Assembly (NCBI RefSeq): GCF_000278275.1
Contig: NZ_JH725147.1
Coordinates: forward strand, 432,388-496,387
DNA from: Bartonella tamiae Th239
GTDB taxonomy: Bacteria; Pseudomonadota; Alphaproteobacteria; Rhizobiales; Rhizobiaceae
DNA: 64,000 nt
Direction: 5' to 3'
The first letter of the stretch is position 1, and every line of letters begins with the position of its first letter. The translations under genes were made by a program, and so were the position numbers. Below the pieces are notes generated by a model, which saw only the letters and a list, made by a program, of their open reading frames with translations, was not told where the DNA came from and made no database searches. Shown here one piece after another: positions 1 through 26,349 of the stretch.

Positions 1-1068
1 TAAAAAAGCAGCACTTGCCATACCCACGCCATGTGCTACAGCTATATATAAAGATTGCCCCGTAGCAGCGTACCTATCTGACCAAAGATTGCGAATCCAA
101 TTTACAAGAAAAACATGGACCCACGAAAATGAAGCCACATGCAATGCAAAAGCTAATATAATTAGATAGTAATTATTTTCATTTGTTAATATCCACCATC
201 TAAAAAGAGTAATGATAATTATGCAATAGAAAAAAATACTATCTGATATTTTCAGTCTTATATAATCAAATATTATAAAGCCAATTGCCTCAATAAAAAA
301 GGTAAAAATCCACAATAGAGATATTTCATAACTTATAAAGTTTTCTTTTTCTAATATTAATGTAGCTGTACTGTAAAATACACCATTGGAACCTATTAAA
401 AAGCAGGATGCCATATATAGAATAATTTTATTGATTAAATCATCATTTAAGTTTTTATCAAATTCAAATATTTTTTTTTTACTTATATTATTATTTTTTT
501 TTGCAACTGCATAAGTTAATATAATTCCAGAAATTAAAACTAGTGTAGGAAGATAATATAATTGGTACATTTGTCCTGATGACCATAAGCCTCCGAACAT
601 AATAACTCCAATACAAATAGCTATAGAACCTATACCACGCATAAGGCCATATCTATTATCTTTATTAGAAAAATTAGTAGCGCTAGCAAATGCTTCTAAT
701 AAAGATTGATAGTAGTTTCTACAAATTGACATCATTATAATACCAATCCACAGCAACCAAAATTGCGAACTAACTCCTAATATTACAGAGGATATTATAG
801 TTAATACACCTAAAAAAGTGAGAGTAATTTGTTGTTTTTCTTGAAAATCTGTCCAATAAGATAATAATGGCCCAGTAAATAGTTTTATTGCAAATACAGA
901 ACTAAATGCTATTGCAATTTCAGATGGAGAAAGACCTTTTTGGTTTAAAAAAGAAGGAAGATAACTTAATAATATTCCAGCAGGTAAATAAAAACCAAAA
1001 AAACCAACTGGTAGATGCCAATCTGCTTGTAATAAATTTAATAATGATTTTTTTTTTAATTTATCCAT
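1..1068 (-). CDS. MFS exporter-like membrane protein (partial, C-terminus beyond window)
   Basis: The reverse strand is open without a stop from an ATG at 1068 to base 1, giving 356 visible residues. The start reads MDKLKKKSLLNLLQADWHLP. The product is a chain of hydrophobic segments separated by short charged loops, as in 12-helix major facilitator proteins. The N-terminal part (FYLPAGILLSYLPSFLNQKG) resembles MFS_1_like / PPP-type transporters. The ATG overlaps the end of the upstream kinase gene by 13 bases, so the two are probably translationally coupled as the last genes of the operon that begins at 4954. By context it may export the cluster product or import a precursor; the substrate cannot be read from sequence. 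The family call is good, the role is inference. Confidence 0.75.
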   Translation of the reverse strand, partial: MDKLKKKSLLNLLQADWHLPVGFFGFYLPAGILLSYLPSFLNQKGLSPSEIAIAFSSVFAIKLFTGPLLSYWTDFQEKQQITLTFLGVLTIISSVILGVSSQFWLLWIGIIMMSICRNYYQSLLEAFASATNFSNKDNRYGLMRGIGSIAICIGVIMFGGLWSSGQMYQLYYLPTLVLISGIILTYAVAKKNNNISKKKIFEFDKNLNDDLINKIILYMASCFLIGSNGVFYSTATLILEKENFISYEISLLWIFTFFIEAIGFIIFDYIRLKISDSIFFYCIIIITLFRWWILTNENNYYLIILAFALHVASFSWVHVFLVNWIRNLWSDRYAATGQSLYIAVAHGVGMASAAFL

Positions 1069-2015
1069 AATTTTATCTCATAATAACACCAATGAATAAT
1101 TTTATTTTTCTTATCATTATTTACATGATTAGACCAAATATGCCGACTAGGCCCTTTTAATCTATATAAAGTTTGGAAAGCGAGATGAAGACGAAATGCA
1201 GCATATTGATTTGTCAAATCACTAGATTTTCTAGCATCACAATATAAATACCAATTTTTTTTAATCATTGTTTCAATATCTGAATTCAATCTAATTCCTT
1301 GAATTACATATTCACTTATAATGTATGATATATCATATATTCCCTCTCCTAATTGGCCTTGTTCAAAATCAATGATAGATATTTCATTTTTTTCAATTAG
1401 GATATTTCTTGAATTTATATCTCCGTGTATTAGATCGCAGTTTGTATTTATATAATTTAATATAAATTTTTCTAACTTAGAAATAAATTCGATAGGTATA
1501 TAATTAAACATATCATTATATTGTAATTTTATTTTAAATTTTTTAAATTCATTACTTGATGAATATAACATATTTTTATTATTGATGGTCATGTTATGTA
1601 ATTTAGCTAGAAAAAAGATAATTTTTTCTAAAATTTCATTATCAATACAATGATCATTTAATAAATATTCATAAAGCGGTTTACCTTTAACCTCATCCAT
1701 AACTATGATAAATAAATCATCATAGAGAGATATTATTTTAGGAACATTAACACCATTACACATTTTACTAGCTTCAATAGACATATTATGCCATTTACAG
1801 GCAACTGTAAAACGTTGGGCAGCTGAAGTTGGTAAAGGTGGATAACAACCTGCTTCAGCCTTATTCGTAAATTTTTTAATAAAAACATTGCTATTACTTA
1901 AATGAGCTTTAACAATTTTATTAAACAACCCCCCTTCAATTTTATGAAGAGTAAAAGGTTTTACAAATATTTTATTAGCAAGATTTTCTATCTCTGTATC
2001 TACTTTTTCAATCAT
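1056..2015 (-). CDS. APH-fold phosphotransferase (aminoglycoside/choline kinase-like)
   Basis: A protein-kinase-like small-molecule kinase. Numbered from a longer frame opening at 2051, the Brenner-type catalytic motif LIHGDINSRNIL (Asp211, Asn216) is followed by the metal-binding IIDFEQG (Asp228), and a Lys pair near 59-60 could bind ATP. I chose the ATG at 2015 because it overlaps the upstream SDR stop by 8 bases (ATGATTGA); the 2051 start would overlap by 44. It lies between an SDR and an MFS gene in a leftward operon. Such kinases phosphorylate aminoglycosides, macrolides, choline, sugars or homoserine. Here it could tailor the product or give self-resistance. Base composition is very AT-rich. 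The family is fairly sure, the substrate unknown. Confidence 0.75.
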   Translation of the reverse strand: MIEKVDTEIENLANKIFVKPFTLHKIEGGLFNKIVKAHLSNSNVFIKKFTNKAEAGCYPPLPTSAAQRFTVACKWHNMSIEASKMCNGVNVPKIISLYDDLFIIVMDEVKGKPLYEYLLNDHCIDNEILEKIIFFLAKLHNMTINNKNMLYSSSNEFKKFKIKLQYNDMFNYIPIEFISKLEKFILNYINTNCDLIHGDINSRNILIEKNEISIIDFEQGQLGEGIYDISYIISEYVIQGIRLNSDIETMIKKNWYLYCDARKSSDLTNQYAAFRLHLAFQTLYRLKGPSRHIWSNHVNNDKKNKIIHWCYYEIKLWIN

Positions 2016-2787
2016 TAATTTTTCTATTTTCTTTATAAACGCCTCTAACAAATAATGCTTGATCTACGGGAAATATGGTTAAATCCTGTATATTAACATG
2101 TTGGGGCTGATTGTGTATCCAAAATATTGTCTTTGCAAGATCTATTGCCTCTAATGGACTAAATCCATTAAATCTCTCATTGTCAGAAAGTCCAGCTTGC
2201 TTATTAAGTAAAGGTGTTTTAGTCGTTCCAGGATTTATACAACAAAATCTTACCTTGCTACCATGTAAGTCAGCCCGGACAGATTGTATAAGCTGTGATA
2301 TATATGATTTACTTGCTGAATAAACGGCCATAAATGGGGCGCAATCAATAGATGCTACAGATCCTAAAACTATAAATGTACCATAACCACGATTTTTAAA
2401 TAATTCTGAAAACTCTTTAATAATAAAAGTTGTAGCTATTATATTAACATTTATAACATCTAGTATATCAACATCAGGCATATCAATTATAGAAACACCT
2501 TGTCGTGCTATACCAGCACTATGAACAACAAGGTCTATATTTTTAATTTCAATATTATAATCTATTAACTTTTTTACTATTGAACCAGATGTTATATCAT
2601 GATTTATGCCAATAAATTTATCATCCCATACTAAAGAAAGATTTTCTAATATCTCAATATTTCTTCCAATTCCGATTACCTTTTTCCCCAAATTTAAATA
2701 CTCTGTAGCAATAGCATAACCTATACCGGATGTAGCACCAGTAACAACTATTACACTTTCTTTTTTGTTTATCTTCTTCAAATACAA
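2008..2787 (-). CDS. short-chain dehydrogenase/reductase (SDR)
   Basis: A classical NAD(P)-dependent SDR of 259 residues, normal length for the family. The cofactor motif TGATSGIG is at 16-23, VVHSAG near 87-92 matches the NAG-type motif with His-Ser in place of Asn-Asn, the active-site Ser is at 143 or 146 (LGSVAS), and the YSASK catalytic pair is Tyr156/Lys160. NPGTTKTP follows, as in DltE/YdfG-like oxidoreductases. It lies 1 base downstream of the HprK-like gene and overlaps the APH-like kinase by 8 bases, so it is part of one transcript. In context it probably oxidises or reduces an intermediate made by the upstream oxygenase. The family is certain; substrate and cofactor preference are not known. 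Confidence 0.88.
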   Translation of the reverse strand: MYLKKINKKESVIVVTGATSGIGYAIATEYLNLGKKVIGIGRNIEILENLSLVWDDKFIGINHDITSGSIVKKLIDYNIEIKNIDLVVHSAGIARQGVSIIDMPDVDILDVINVNIIATTFIIKEFSELFKNRGYGTFIVLGSVASIDCAPFMAVYSASKSYISQLIQSVRADLHGSKVRFCCINPGTTKTPLLNKQAGLSDNERFNGFSPLEAIDLAKTIFWIHNQPQHVNIQDLTIFPVDQALFVRGVYKENRKIND

Positions 2788-2788
2788 C

Positions 2789-3892
2789 CTATTTAATATT
2801 AATTATATCACTGATAAATAAACGAAATTTAGGTTTAAAAGTAGATGGGTTTGCATCTATAATATAAATCTTAACTTTATTTATTTTTATAAAATCTATT
2901 AATTTATCTATATCATAATTTGAATTTTTTAATATTTGTTCATGCCAACAAGGTATGTCTTCATCAATATCATTAAATATAACTTTTTTTAGGTTGTTTT
3001 TTAATTCAAAACTGTCATTATTAATTAATTTAAAAGAAAAACTAAATTCGTATTCTAAATTAAAATTTGAAAAGATAATTGCTTTTAATTTTGATGATAT
3101 AGAATATTTAAAATTATAAATATTAGTTAAATAATCTTGTGGTATTATTCTTTTTTTATTTTGCACATAACTATGATCATAGTCAACTCCCCATTTTTTT
3201 AATCCATTTTCATTATTACAATTCTCGTAGGTATTAAAAGCCATTTTAACTTTAGGATAATCAGTAATAGTACCCTCACAATAAGAAAGATAACTAGGCC
3301 ATGAATAAATATGATTTTTACTTGAAAAGAATACACGATCGTTTGCGAAAGGTAGAACTCCTGCAACATCTAATGCCTCAAGAAATTGGGTTGATTTTCC
3401 AGAACCCTTATTTCCAGCAAATAAAATAGCACCGTTTGGAGAATTCACGGCACTTGCATGAACAGCAATTCCGAATGGTTCACTTCTTAAATACAATGCA
3501 ATATTTCGCGCTGCATGAAATAACAACTCAGCCCCTCTTATTGTAGATTTTTCATTTGCATAAAGAGTTAAAGTTTCATTTTTAAAATGAAACTTTAACC
3601 CATATTTTGGAATTATAAAAAAAGAATTATACCTATAACCTTTTATATTCCAGTGATCATAGTTACTTGATTTATGAAAATATGACCAATCTAGATCTAG
3701 ATCTAGATCTAGATTTAGATTGGTCATTTCATTTATTATAATTTTAATTATTCTATTGTGTCTAATACATACTTTACTTTCATAACTATCTGAAAAACGA
3801 GAAAAATATGATAACCATCTTTCTGATCCAGATATATGAAACCTTGTATCTAATATCTGAAATACATTTTCTTTCATTTTTATAACAGACAT
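2789..3892 (-). CDS. HprK-like P-loop kinase
   Basis: A 367-residue protein whose central part matches HPr kinase/phosphorylase-like proteins: His145 in VHASAV, the Walker A loop GNKGSGKST at 160-168, then ANDRVFF (Asp185), where HprK proteins carry a DDRV-type motif. The N-terminal 140 residues and C-terminal 170 residues match nothing I recognise and are rich in Asn, Ile, Lys and Phe. HprK-like kinases occur in several peptide and natural-product clusters, where some phosphorylate the product. No precursor peptide or PqqD-like partner is visible here. Residues 60-68 are an Leu-Asp run coded by a hexanucleotide repeat. It is the second gene of the operon, 48 bases after the oxygenase. The kinase-fold call is moderately sure, the substrate unknown. 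Confidence 0.7.
   Translation of the reverse strand: MSVIKMKENVFQILDTRFHISGSERWLSYFSRFSDSYESKVCIRHNRIIKIIINEMTNLNLDLDLDLDWSYFHKSSNYDHWNIKGYRYNSFFIIPKYGLKFHFKNETLTLYANEKSTIRGAELLFHAARNIALYLRSEPFGIAVHASAVNSPNGAILFAGNKGSGKSTQFLEALDVAGVLPFANDRVFFSSKNHIYSWPSYLSYCEGTITDYPKVKMAFNTYENCNNENGLKKWGVDYDHSYVQNKKRIIPQDYLTNIYNFKYSISSKLKAIIFSNFNLEYEFSFSFKLINNDSFELKNNLKKVIFNDIDEDIPCWHEQILKNSNYDIDKLIDFIKINKVKIYIIDANPSTFKPKFRLFISDIINIK
3682..3727. repeat. 46-bp near-perfect palindrome with AGATCT repeat core
   Basis: Inside the HprK-like gene, 12-base arms (3682-3693 and 3716-3727, starting ATGACCAATCTA) flank a core of about four AGATCT units. Folding about the centre at 3704/3705, I find only one mismatched pair (3694 with 3715). 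On the coding strand it encodes Thr-Asn followed by Leu-Asn/Leu-Asp repeats. Because the unit is 6 bases, copy-number change would keep the frame and add or remove Leu-Asp pairs. Confidence 0.85.
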
Positions 3893-3940
3893 ATAATTTC
3901 CAGTTTATAAATGATATGTATATTAAACACAGGTTACGCT

Positions 3941-4954
3941 CTAACCATTTACTAAATTTTTACTATTTTTCTGGAAGAATTTTGCATGTTGTCTCAAATC
4001 AGCAACATTAACTGTTTTTTGTAACCATCTATTACGAAGATCATCTTTATCTTCAAAATGAATAACCTCTTTAGCATGAACACTTTCATTGTTAGCCTCA
4101 CCTAAGAAAAAACCCGATTTAATTCTAAAACGTTTTTTATGCTTATGTAATAATTTAATTATAGCATAAACTGCTTGTTGAGCTTCTGGCGTCAACCCAA
4201 TTGTTCTATTTTCAAATATTCTAATATCATATTCAGAAGCCCCTCCAATAATAGGATGTAAATCTGCATCTCCTAATTCTACATTTCCACCAGCTATACT
4301 CAAATCATCAAATGGCGTATAAAACAAATTTTTTGCAAGTATTTTACGTTGAGATGACGATAATTCCTCTAAGACATCAATATTACGTGTAAACGAAGTA
4401 AACACATAATTAGTTTCAGCTTGACGCAAGCCTAAAATATTAACCCAATCAGGACGAACAAAGTGATTGGCTAAATCCTTGTGAAAACCAATATCCTCAA
4501 GAGCTTTTTGCGATTGAGTATTTGCTAACTTTTCCCACGGGTGAATATCTTGAAAAATATCCCCATCATTTACATTAAGATAGCCAATAGGCTCTTGTTC
4601 CATGAGCTTTGCATAAATTAACAAAAAAGATTCAGAAACATAAGTTTTTTTCTTATACCTTTTATCAACTACTGGATTAGTATAATCAAGCAGTGGTAAG
4701 TCTTTATCGATTGGGCACCCTTTGAGAGTAATACAAGGTTTTTCGTGTTTTTTTAATAATTTTGCCTCACCACAAAAATCAATAAATCTTTTTGGTATAA
4801 TATCTGCATTCAATATTTCATTTATATTATTTTCAAAACTTTGATAATTATCATAAGGGCTAATTTTTATATCACTGAATATATCAATTAGTGTATCTGC
4901 TTCAGATACAGAAAATATATAATCTATATTAGTATATTCTTTAATATTAATCAT
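3941..4954 (-). CDS. Fe(II)/2-oxoglutarate-dependent oxygenase, clavaminate synthase / amino-acid hydroxylase type
   Basis: A protein of 337 residues. The layout resembles TauD/TfdA-clan amino-acid oxygenases (clavaminate synthase, VioC-type arginine and AsnO-type asparagine hydroxylases). EPIGYLNVNDGDIFQDI at 121-137 corresponds to the segment before the metal site. FHKD (His158, Asp160) fits the HxD/E facial-triad motif, and ESVHAK (His293) fits the distal His. DLRNRWLQKTVN (Arg307/Arg309) fits the 2-oxoglutarate-binding Arg region. It is the first gene of the leftward operon, and its ATG follows a strong GGAGGAGAT ribosome site. In known relatives the substrate is a free or carrier-bound amino acid. 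I infer a hydroxylation or desaturation step; the substrate is not predictable. Confidence 0.72.
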   Translation of the reverse strand: MINIKEYTNIDYIFSVSEADTLIDIFSDIKISPYDNYQSFENNINEILNADIIPKRFIDFCGEAKLLKKHEKPCITLKGCPIDKDLPLLDYTNPVVDKRYKKKTYVSESFLLIYAKLMEQEPIGYLNVNDGDIFQDIHPWEKLANTQSQKALEDIGFHKDLANHFVRPDWVNILGLRQAETNYVFTSFTRNIDVLEELSSSQRKILAKNLFYTPFDDLSIAGGNVELGDADLHPIIGGASEYDIRIFENRTIGLTPEAQQAVYAIIKLLHKHKKRFRIKSGFFLGEANNESVHAKEVIHFEDKDDLRNRWLQKTVNVADLRQHAKFFQKNSKNLVNG

Positions 4955-5018: not shown

Positions 5019-5534
5019 GAGCCTGACCGAAAATTAAGTTTTGTATTATCATTTACTTATGATTCTCTATTTTTACAAAAACGAGGTGAGGATCAAGATG
5101 GTTTGGACTGATAATACCCGTTTGCACTATAACTGGGTTATTCAAGCGATTGTATCGATGCCGAATGGCAGATTGTTTTGCCATTTTTAGAGCGCCAGCA
5201 TAAGGTTGGTCGCCCACGCAAGCACAGCTATCGCGCTATCTGGAACGCGATTTTGTATCTTACCTCTACTGGTTGTCAGTGGGATCAGCTCCCCAAGGAC
5301 TTTCCACCCTTTAGAACCGTCCAGTATTACTTTTACCGTTTGCGTGACAGCGGATTGCTTGATGTCATTCATGAATCGTTGATTGCGTTTATACGCCAAA
5401 TTGAAGGACGTGCGGCGCAACCGACAGCAAGATTACCACAACTGGATGTACTCTTCACTTCATTGCCTACCGGTTCATCGGCAGAAACGCTGGCGCGTGT
5501 TCCCAAAAATGTGAACCTTTTTGATAAGGGTTAA
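5019..5534 (+). pseudogene. IS5-family (IS1031/IS402-like) transposase remnant
   Basis: An ATG at 5098 begins MVWTDNTR, a typical start for these transposases, but the frame closes at a TAG just after 5175. A second frame carries DAEWQIVLPFLERQHKVGRP and continues through RAIWNAILYLTSTGCQWDQL and FRTVQYYFYRLRDSGLL to a stop at 5534. The N-terminal half is therefore frameshifted. The catalytic C-terminal part (DDE) is missing, and the last 35 or so residues look out of frame. GAGCCTGACCG at 5019 may be the left inverted-repeat end; no matching right end was found. It is a dead insertion sequence next to the oxygenase operon. Confidence 0.8.
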
Positions 5535-5667: not shown

Positions 5668-6036
5668 ATGCTAATTGGTTATGCACGGGTATCAACATAA
5701 GATCAAAATTTGCAATTACAACTGGAAGCTTTATTAAAGGCTGGTTGTGAGCGTATTTATGAAGATACGATGAGTGGTAGCAAAGCGGATCGATCTGGTT
5801 TAGCAAAGGCTATGGAGATGCTGCGTGAAGGTGATACGCTTGTTGTATGGAAGCTTGATCGTTTAGGCCGCTCCGTTAAGCAGTTAGTTGATCTTGTTGG
5901 CGCGTTGCAAAAGCAAGGTATCAATTTTAAAAGTTTAACGGATTCCATAGATACCGGTAATCCTTCGGGTCGCTTTTTCTTTCATGTGATGGCAAGTTTA
6001 GCCCAAATGGAACGTGAATTAATTATTGCTTTATAG
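5668..6036 (+). pseudogene. serine recombinase (resolvase/invertase) fragment with in-frame stop
   Basis: The reading frame starts MLIGYARVST, the resolvase N-terminus with the catalytic Ser, followed by TAA at 5698-5700 (codon 11) where the family has a variable residue before DQN. It then continues DQNLQLQLEALLKAGC, GDTLVVWKLDRLGRS and SLAQMERELI to a stop at 6036. The DNA-binding C-terminal helix-turn-helix part is absent (about 122 codons against about 180 in full invertases). A C-to-T change of CAA would explain the stop. Probably a plasmid- or phage-derived remnant, non-functional. Confidence 0.85.
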
Positions 6037-24811: not shown

Positions 24812-25585
24812 TCACTTATTATTAAAATAAATTGGCATAAGATTAAACTGTATCGCTTTACTAACGGCTTGCGTTATTGATACACAACTTAAACTATGGC
24901 GAGCAGATTCAATGTAAGCACGAACAGTATTAGTAGACAATCCCATAATTACAGCCGTTTCGTAAGCTGTTTTTCCTTGAGAAGCCCAATATAAACAATG
25001 TCTTTCACGTAGTGTTAATTTAAATTCTTGCTTAAATGTTTTTGCTTCTTTATCATTTGCCGTTCTTAAAGCTGCTGCATGAATTAACTGTGCGACTACG
25101 ATCAAGTCTTTTAAATTATCAGACGTAAAAGAATTCCATTCAGATTTGCTTCCATCATAAGTAAAAGAAATCACTGCACGTTCTACTGATGGGCCTCGAA
25201 CTGGTATACTGATTCCGAAGTCTCCTACACCAAAATCGTGGGCTATAGAAATCAGGCTTTTAGTCTTTGATTTGATAATATTGAAATGACGCCAGTCGGT
25301 TGGTAACACATTATTAAAAGTTTGATAAAGAACTGGATCATGAAGATATAAATTATTATCGCGATAATAACATTGCCAGTGTTCAGTATATGTCGTTAAA
25401 AATATTGGTTCTTTAAATTTAGATTTTGTATCATTTACAGAAAAATAACTCACATGTTTCAAATCATAAAAATCGACTATTTTATAAAGTTCGTTTTTTA
25501 ATGATTCGAAACTTATTATTTTAAGAATATCTAATTCTATATTTCTATTTGTCGACTTATTCATAAATTTATATATATAATTCAT
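24812..25585 (-). CDS. LuxR-family acyl-homoserine-lactone receptor/regulator
   Basis: A 257-residue regulator with an N-terminal autoinducer-binding domain and a C-terminal LuxR helix-turn-helix. The invariant ligand-pocket residues are present: Trp70, Tyr74, Asp83-Pro84 and Trp98 (WQCYYR, HDPVLY, TDWRHF). The HTH begins KLTLRERHCLYW with Glu194 and Gly204, and NTVRAYIESARHSL is the recognition helix. It is divergent from luxI, with a 149-base shared promoter region. It probably binds the signal made by the neighbouring LuxI and activates it. Relatives in rhizobia are 235-260 residues, so it is full length. No disruptions seen. Confidence 0.92.
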   Translation of the reverse strand: MNYIYKFMNKSTNRNIELDILKIISFESLKNELYKIVDFYDLKHVSYFSVNDTKSKFKEPIFLTTYTEHWQCYYRDNNLYLHDPVLYQTFNNVLPTDWRHFNIIKSKTKSLISIAHDFGVGDFGISIPVRGPSVERAVISFTYDGSKSEWNSFTSDNLKDLIVVAQLIHAAALRTANDKEAKTFKQEFKLTLRERHCLYWASQGKTAYETAVIMGLSTNTVRAYIESARHSLSCVSITQAVSKAIQFNLMPIYFNNK

Positions 25586-25734: not shown

Positions 25735-26349
25735 ATGTTAAAGATTATACAATACCACCAATACAACGAAAATTATGAATTAATGAACAAAATGTTTAGT
25801 GTTCGCGCTAAAATATTTAAGGAACGTCTTGATTGGGACGTTATTGTAAAAGATGGTTATGAAAAAGATGTATTTGACGAATTAAATCCTCTTTATTTAG
25901 TATCAGTAGATAAAGATAATAAATTGCAAGGTTCTCTGCGTCTTTTACCTACAACCGGCCCAAATATGTTGCGTAATGTGTTCGGTGTACTCATACCTGA
26001 TGGAAAAATAGAAAGTCCTTTAATTTGGGAAAGCTCAAGATTCTGTATTAATCCTGAAATTACACATAAAAACTCTGATGATGAAAAATTATTTGTCAAT
26101 CGTGTAACTTTAGAATTATTGAGCGGTCTAGCCGAGGTCGGTCTAATCGCTGGATTAAAGTTTATTGTTACTGTGTATGACGCGAGAATGGCAAGATTGC
26201 TAAAACGTATCAATTGTCCTGCTCAGATTATTGGAGGTCCTATAAAAATTGGTAAAGTTATGACTTATGCATCATTGTTTGAAGTCAGTGAAAATATGTG
26301 GGTAAGGTTGGGACAATCAATTGGTATACAAAAGACATTACAGTTATAA
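25735..26349 (+). CDS. LuxI-family acyl-homoserine-lactone synthase
   Basis: Makes an N-acyl-homoserine lactone from S-adenosylmethionine and acyl-ACP. The 204-residue protein keeps every residue invariant in the family: Arg24, Phe28, Trp34, Asp45, Asp48, Arg69, Phe83, Glu99 and Arg102 (VRAKIF, LDWDV, DVFDELNPLYL, GSLRLLPT, WESSRF). It should be active. The acyl chain cannot be predicted. It lies on the integrated island next to a divergent luxR, with a lux-box-like site before it and a 44-residue ORF 14 bases behind it. Confidence 0.95.
   Translation: MLKIIQYHQYNENYELMNKMFSVRAKIFKERLDWDVIVKDGYEKDVFDELNPLYLVSVDKDNKLQGSLRLLPTTGPNMLRNVFGVLIPDGKIESPLIWESSRFCINPEITHKNSDDEKLFVNRVTLELLSGLAEVGLIAGLKFIVTVYDARMARLLKRINCPAQIIGGPIKIGKVMTYASLFEVSENMWVRLGQSIGIQKTLQL

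Follow-up and report, generated by a model that had tools for sequence, protein, structure and literature searches.

A rare, conserved six-gene cluster of small biosynthetic-type enzymes in a genomic island of Bartonella tamiae Th239

In the clavaminate-synthase-like (CSL) family of Fe(II)/2-oxoglutarate (2OG) oxygenases, one description assigns the alpha-amine contact to position P2, the 2OG arginine to P18, the substrate-carboxylate arginine to P19 and an acidic pocket taking cationic side chains to P12/P15 (PMC6224419), a Gln or Glu at P2 being a majority feature of the family and CAS1 having Leu there. The present analysis concerns an operon headed by an oxygenase of this type in Bartonella tamiae Th239 (genome of 2.25 Mb, two contigs), located at the start of a stretch of 64,000 nucleotides that corresponds to positions 432388-496387 of contig NZ_JH725147.1, hereafter the window. 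The cluster brings together a CSL oxygenase, a protein of the phosphoenolpyruvate carboxykinase (PEPCK)/HprK fold and two folds known from antibiotic-modifying enzymes (APH and ANT). This operon is a rare and conserved cluster of small enzymes of biosynthetic type and, on a balance of probabilities tilted slightly in favour of this reading, it directs the biosynthesis of a small, probably amino-acid-derived metabolite independently of any nonribosomal peptide synthetase (NRPS) or polyketide synthase (PKS), having been acquired with a genomic island.

The operon consists of six densely spaced open reading frames (ORFs), all open and on the same leftward strand, five of them in the window and the sixth left of base 1. 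From right to left, these encode the CSL oxygenase (3941-4954, minus strand as are the following, 337 aa), a PEPCK/HprK-fold P-loop protein and putative kinase (2789-3892, 367 aa), here called HprK-like or HPRK, a short-chain dehydrogenase/reductase (SDR; 2008-2787, 259 aa; PF00106, E 1e-33) with its Y156-x3-K160 motif, an APH-fold kinase (1056-2051, 331 aa; PF01636, 38 bits for a cut-off of 23.2), a major facilitator superfamily (MFS) transporter (1-1068 and continuing past base 1, 356 of its 400 aa lying within the window; PF12832, E 2.5e-24) and a nucleotidyltransferase (NT; contig positions 431442-432266, 274 aa) with the predicted fold of LinB and ANT. An earlier sequence-only reading of the window had described five leftward genes, four of which overlap or abut; all five are indeed open, with spacers of 48 and 1 bp followed by overlaps of 44 and 13 bp from the oxygenase to the MFS gene, but the set is one of six. 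Its suspicion that the cluster continued left of base 1 proved right, as the MFS gene is completed there and overlaps the NT gene by 14 bp; further left come a fragment of an IS6-type transposase and then host genes, all of this outside the window. These spacings and overlaps depend on mechanical ORF starts and, as they stand, leave no space between the six genes for an extra one. The SDR, APH and MFS assignments of that reading hold above the Pfam cut-offs, and in agreement with it no NRPS or PKS core synthase, nor any precursor peptide, was found among the island ORFs of at least 80-90 aa. Catalytic residues are intact in all five operon proteins checked.

To place this cluster among other genomes, an alignment of the oxygenase with plasmid relatives from Staphylococcus epidermidis, Vibrio and Streptomyces was scanned over 84,980 species genomes with two peptide patterns, which returned 243 pattern stretches and 102 relatives, and the loci studied are the best 80 of these 102. 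The sequence-only reading had proposed a search for co-occurrence elsewhere, the failure of which would have refuted it. It stands up to this, as all six genes are grouped on the same strand, in the order HPRK-oxygenase-SDR-APH-MFS-NT, at three loci of Rhizobacter (L056, L057, L059; tblastn), and five of the six are so grouped in Cupriavidus alkaliphilus (L055). HPRK and NT homologues occur in 4 of the 80 oxygenase loci, namely these same four, each time with APH and MFS and in three of the four with the SDR, the tblastn E-values being 1e-44 to 1e-57 for HPRK and 1e-42 to 1e-59 for NT; this co-occurrence with the oxygenase exceeds chance. Identities to the window proteins are 29-35% for HPRK, 31-35% for NT, 34-38% for APH (without L057), 42-44% for the oxygenase, 45% for the SDR with its three Rhizobacter homologues and 29-46% by best piece for MFS. 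Profile hidden Markov models of HPRK and NT, which include the cluster rows by construction and whose scores on those rows are uninformative, found neither protein in the remaining loci of the 80. Outside the window genome, the carriers found are four genomes from two proteobacterial families (Sphaerotilaceae and Burkholderiaceae), and the co-occurrence spans three lineages, i.e. the window genome, Rhizobacter and Cupriavidus.

The rarity of the cluster is apparent from genome samples, all of them draws from larger groups. The NT was met at E<=1e-6 in 1 of 369 genomes of the phylum, which is its own genome; with E<=1e-8, its sole match among 249 genomes of the Cupriavidus family is the known C. 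alkaliphilus copy. HPRK was found at E<=1e-10 in 3 of 299 genomes of the Rhizobacter family, with scores that are those of the three known Rhizobacter copies. It had no match among 60 relatives of the window genome, 36 of them congeners, and of 349 genomes sampled from the phylum 7 others gave only weak matches (E 1e-4 or worse). Neither the window NT nor the Rhizobacter NT had a match among 72,556 plasmid records (tblastn); on plasmids, the window and Cupriavidus HPRK found only remote Streptomyces HprK-like proteins, and APH and the oxygenase found distant relatives only. In the open-access literature searched, no description of such a cluster was found, going by titles and abstract openings.

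The sequence-only reading had called the oxygenase clavaminate-synthase-type, and profile searches bear this out. A 14-row profile matches AsnO (2.9e-14), L-lysine 3-hydroxylase (1e-13) and CAS1 (2e-12) in the PDB, and the NCBIfam models of GntD (guanitoxin), clavaminate synthase (CS1) and VioC match too, every one below cut-off. The iron triad and the 2OG arginine (H158, D160, H293 and R309) are conserved without exception in the 14 rows and align with those of AsnO, R309 falling on P18, and the subfamily shares FHKDLANHFVRPD, invariant across the same 14 aligned rows. Also invariant in all 14 are D216/D217 and E248, candidates for the acidic pocket placed by sequence alignment alone, which hint at a cationic side chain on the substrate; as far as the alignment goes, this suggests an amino-acid-like carboxylate bearing such a side chain.

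Regarding its origin, the window oxygenase has its closest relatives in actinobacteria: those of Nocardiopsis trehalosi and Streptomyces varsoviensis are 64-65% identical to it, and that of Arthrobacter terricola follows at 53%. In a tree from which the loci L070-L074, being partial or interrupted, and all but six of the 40 distant ones (L075-L114) were omitted, it joins these three (support 100/98 and 97/96), apart from the Cupriavidus/Rhizobacter clade (100/99), and forcing the five cluster oxygenases into one clade, picked for testing after the identities and the tree were known, is rejected by the approximately unbiased (AU) test (p 1.4e-30). The APH tree, which carries a long-branch warning and none of whose starred sets includes the window protein, has the window, Cupriavidus and Rhizobacter proteins on the same side of a 99/99 split. 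From both trees and the AU test, it follows that the same operon has been assembled with two oxygenase lineages, the oxygenase gene being first rather than second in the window; the swap could be a module exchange between related reactions or, equally, a change of substrate. The N. trehalosi, S. varsoviensis and A. terricola oxygenase loci share a neighbour family (F15) that is glycosyltransferase-like, two members matching NCBIfam glycosyltransferase-type models below cut-off (E 2e-5 to 8e-8) and the S. varsoviensis member being without a Pfam match. Transporter-like proteins come after F15, with weak MFS models in L037 and, in L035 and L036, no match and a call by eye.

The pairing of oxygenase and APH is found beyond the cluster itself. 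Counting the four cluster loci, a homologue of the window APH lies near the oxygenase in 8 of the 80 loci (tblastn): it is beside it in Nocardia CNY236, Acinetobacter calcoaceticus and Catenovulum (L049, L061, L062; 28-29% identity, E 1e-28 to 1e-34), and on the opposite strand in an Acidimicrobiaceae metagenome-assembled genome (L063; 23%, 1e-20). An AurF-type N-oxygenase family is present in L049, L061 and L062, class III aminotransferase, HAD and AMP-binding families are common to L061 and L062, and L062 also has an SDR. This recurrence in otherwise different clusters suggests that the APH acts on the hydroxylated product, a parallel being the hydroxylysine kinase with its class III phospho-lyase. 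Related oxygenases also lie in the vicinity of NRPS, PKS or AurF-type genes. Reading the substrate from the NRPS-type family F1 near these relatives (24 ORFs at 23 loci, one member Pfam-scanned) was abandoned, the motif search giving no consistent code. As side observations on the same neighbourhoods, another family, F2, has members in the neighbourhood of the oxygenase at 10 of 40 loci (L039, L045, L047, L050, L062, L064, L065, L067, L068 and L069), with two scanned members matching thiamine-pyrophosphate enzymes/acetolactate synthase, and is beside a giant ORF in four Corallococcus loci; the S. epidermidis plasmid pML7049-5 (52 kb, L008) carries a distant oxygenase relative (32% identity) in a cluster with LeuA, an isochorismatase-type hydrolase, a cupin, an MFS protein, LeuC-LeuD and an aminotransferase, and a partly similar set exists on a Streptomyces plasmid.

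The second gene product had been taken by the sequence-only reading for an HprK-like kinase. Its HprK-type motifs and P-loop stand, with G160, K162, K166, H145, N184 and D185 invariant in 5 of 5 rows. No Pfam family reaches its cut-off, Hpr_kinase_C giving no match, and the NCBIfam models HprK_rel_B and HprK_rel_A score 14.5 and 12.1 bits for cut-offs of 200. For the AlphaFold model (mean predicted local distance difference test score, pLDDT, 77.9), VIA matched an ATP-dependent PEPCK over the whole chain (Z 15.8, root-mean-square deviation (rmsd) 4.8, 298 residues), and Foldseek gave a weaker match to HprK/P (E 1.2e-3). Judging from this model, the strongest fold match is PEPCK and the protein may not be a plain kinase. 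Within the gene, positions 3689-3720 of the window hold about five copies of a 6-bp unit encoding alternating Leu-Asp; as the unit is in frame, a change in copy number would leave the gene unbroken.

A PEPCK-type chemistry can be envisaged from this fold, in which the oxygenase would yield a beta-hydroxy acid and the SDR would turn this into a beta-keto acid. Decarboxylation and phosphorylation by the P-loop enzyme would then give an enol phosphate, to be nucleotidylated and exported. If true, amino acids would have a route to phospho-enol natural products that is new, but we regard this as very improbable. A hint in its direction comes from two Streptomyces plasmids with a recurring trio of an APH or homologue, a lactate/malate-type dehydrogenase and an HprK-like protein (L142:4483-7843 and L011:5549-8684), the first member being an APH in S. 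hygroscopicus and a 44% homologue without Pfam match in S. vietnamensis, since this pairs a malate-dehydrogenase-like with a PEPCK-like enzyme, albeit with another dehydrogenase fold. Counted against it, no PEPCK sequence model matched among Pfam and NCBIfam families at E up to 1, E. coli PEPCK is unaligned before residue 114, and the APHs of the trio show no significant similarity to the window APH (blastp E 5 or worse). By itself, the HprK-like protein has distant relatives in 11 of 296 Nocardia-phylum genomes (E 2e-14 to 7e-7), the similarity lying mostly in the P-loop region, as well as in S. varsoviensis (1.2e-11), one of nine genomes with related oxygenases, and, as a weak match, in the L038 genome (8.1e-6). 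Another possible small-molecule cluster is a Nocardia-phylum locus (L144) where an HprK-like protein has as neighbours a class V aminotransferase, an HMGL-like enzyme and an ATP-grasp protein of the L-amino-acid-ligase type.

In the biosynthetic reading that we prefer, the Fe/2OG oxygenase would hydroxylate an amino acid or derivative and the APH-fold kinase would phosphorylate that hydroxyl, or a molecule bearing it; the SDR would oxidise an alcohol, the PEPCK/HprK-fold enzyme would carry out a second phosphoryl transfer, the LinB/ANT-fold enzyme would add a nucleotide, for maturation or self-protection, and the MFS protein would export the product. In Cupriavidus, a HAD-family gene overlaps the end of the NT gene (L055:13005-13718), a sign that one phosphate or more may be only temporary in that organism. 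Clusters of small enzymes free of NRPS and PKS easily escape rule-based genome mining and, if biosynthetic, this one would be a compact six-gene pathway, bearing on the question of resistance-enzyme folds arising from, or serving, biosynthesis.

Several observations weigh against such a pathway. The Cupriavidus locus is without an adjacent SDR, the three Rhizobacter oxygenases are near-identical and thus represent one lineage, and the window oxygenase does not branch as sister to the four other cluster oxygenases, so that its substrate might differ. In the active site, P19 is K313 and not the expected Arg in 14 of 14 rows, a replacement with precedent in the family as NapI (6daw) likewise has Lys there in the alignment. 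At P2, Val128 falls in the column of the AsnO/KDO1 Glu and the CAS1 Leu, and Asn129 in that of the NapI Gln, both being invariant in 14 of 14 rows; this alignment suggests that the alpha-nitrogen of the substrate is either not free, as with CAS1, or held by Asn. Lastly, the APH, ANT-like and MFS proteins are also components of a resistance block.

This last point leads to an alternative that we consider unlikely, namely a resistance or detoxification island where the APH and the LinB/ANT-fold NT would inactivate an incoming antibiotic, the MFS protein would expel it, and its degradation would fall to the oxygenase, the SDR and the P-loop enzyme. Its main argument is that the APH and the NT both have antibiotic-modifying folds. 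The APH matches PF01636 above the gathering cut-off (E 1.9e-9), with the residues of its HxDxxxxN/D motifs (H209, D211, N216 and D228) invariant in 7 of 7 rows, and its profile weakly finds APH(2'')-Id and the corramycin phosphotransferase (2.7e-5 and worse). The NT lies below the Pfam cut-offs for PF01909 (NTP_transf_2; 18.3 for 21 bits) and PF18765 (18.5 for 26.9 bits), its lowest Pfam E-value being an unrelated 7TMR-HDED match, also under cut-off. Nonetheless, its predicted structure (pLDDT 85.1) matches the two-domain fold of LinB (Z 15.0, rmsd 6.1, 246 residues), ANT(6) (Z 14.5, rmsd 12.8, 227 residues; Z 14.2, rmsd 7.5, 241 residues) and ANT(4') (Z 11.6, rmsd 5.8-6.0), and the Pol-beta motif GGS...DxD is present (G28, G29, S30, D41 and D43), along with E99. 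Horizontal acquisition of the island, with mobile-element fragments at its borders, would also fit a resistance role. The main counter-argument is the biosynthetic company (NRPS, PKS, AurF) that related oxygenases keep; furthermore, the oxygenase profile finds amino-acid oxygenases as its nearest relatives in the PDB, the PEPCK/HprK-fold enzyme, kept in all five copies, is not obviously needed, and the plasmid records yielded no NT. A defence system was considered and discarded, PADLOC giving one marginal APH match only (E 0.00099).

Quite improbable in our view is a role in envelope or cofactor decoration, in which the kinase and the NT would activate a hydroxylated amine, much as happens in choline kinase/cytidylyltransferase pathways, so that it could be attached to a glycan or lipid of the surface. 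A kinase and an NT in a single operon would suit this, as would the weak similarity of the APH profile to choline kinase (7e-4 to 9e-4), but the best of the fold matches listed for the NT are LinB and ANT, and no transferase for an activated group was seen within the island.

As for the setting, the AT-rich composition, the transposase wreckage and the horizontal transfer put forward by the sequence-only reading are all upheld. The six operon genes have a GC content of 24-30%, for 38-40% in five nearby host genes and 40-48% in the insertion sequence (IS) and resolvase fragments; Rhizobacter and Cupriavidus are high-GC bacteria. At the right border stand fragments of an IS5-family transposase (5178-5534, plus strand; PF13340, E 4e-19; positions 15-96 of 258 in the NCBIfam IS5 model) and of the N-terminal part of a serine resolvase (5710-6036, plus strand; PF00239, E 2.1e-33), and at the left border the IS6-type fragment, so that the mobile genes are truncated on both sides. 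When the left part of the region (dehydrogenase, IS6 fragment, NT, MFS and most of APH) was searched as DNA against the genus, 27 of 61 genomes matched, own genome included, the dehydrogenase giving long matches (in 12 others), the IS6 region shorter ones and the AT-rich genes pieces of 30-50 bp; in the 60 other sampled genomes, no gene-length match was found in NT, MFS and most of APH. The next gene rightward (NlpC/P60) is also found in the same 12 congeners, to which the comparison of the insertion site applies, the other 48 being without the dehydrogenase match. The flanking homology blocks are 261-276 bp apart in four congeners checked by sequence (L124, L125, L126 and L130) and 270-305 bp apart in two others by coordinates (G011 and G017), and about 3.5 kb apart in six, three by sequence (L127-L129) and three by coordinates (G007, G625 and G643), with an AstE/AspA-type hydrolase, an MFS and a LysR gene in L127, whereas the window genome has 8,204 bp between them. 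The insertion site is therefore a variable chromosomal slot with at least three states.

That the block is inert cargo, transferred and retained by chance in a decaying region, is a shade less credible than decoration, for although truncated transposase and resolvase remnants flank it and the genus searches found neither gene-length DNA matches for NT, MFS and most of APH nor the HprK-like protein in any of 36 congeners, its six genes are open and the catalytic residues of the five proteins checked intact while the border mobile genes are broken.

Other origins were examined and set aside. A scan of viral contigs with the HPRK alignment (32 pattern stretches) gave no relative and hence no support for a phage, no tRNA was found at the insertion site, and a composite transposon delimited by IS6 terminal repeats was rejected, the single match with 3 mismatches being at chance level (mean 0.85). 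Away from the island, another AT-rich dip of the window holds a divergent pair, i.e. a LuxR-type regulator (24812-25585, minus strand; PF03472, E 9.5e-23) and a LuxI-type autoinducer synthase (25735-26349, plus strand; PF00765, E 2.2e-40).

The described systems nearest to the operon compare with it as follows. With AsnO, KDO1 (L-lysine 3-hydroxylase), CAS1, VioC and GntD, the oxygenase shares the HxD...H iron ligands and the 2OG-binding Arg at the expected positions, whereas it is weakly similar in sequence and forms its own subfamily, with Val128/Asn129 at P2 and Lys313 at P19. The HprK-like protein resembles ATP-type PEPCK in its whole-chain fold but matches no PEPCK sequence model, and the E. 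coli enzyme lies outside the aligned range before residue 114; with HPr kinase and HprK-related proteins it has in common the HxS motif, Walker A and the ND motif, but the HprK-related models remain far under their cut-offs and HprK/P is absent from the best 50 VIA rows. LinB, ANT(6) and ANT(4') are akin to the window NT in whole-length fold, GGS...DxD and E99, and differ from it by the low identity (10-14%), the large rmsd and its location in a biosynthesis-like operon. As for the whole cluster, its Rhizobacter/Cupriavidus version has HPRK before the oxygenase instead of the reverse order of the window, and an oxygenase of a different lineage.

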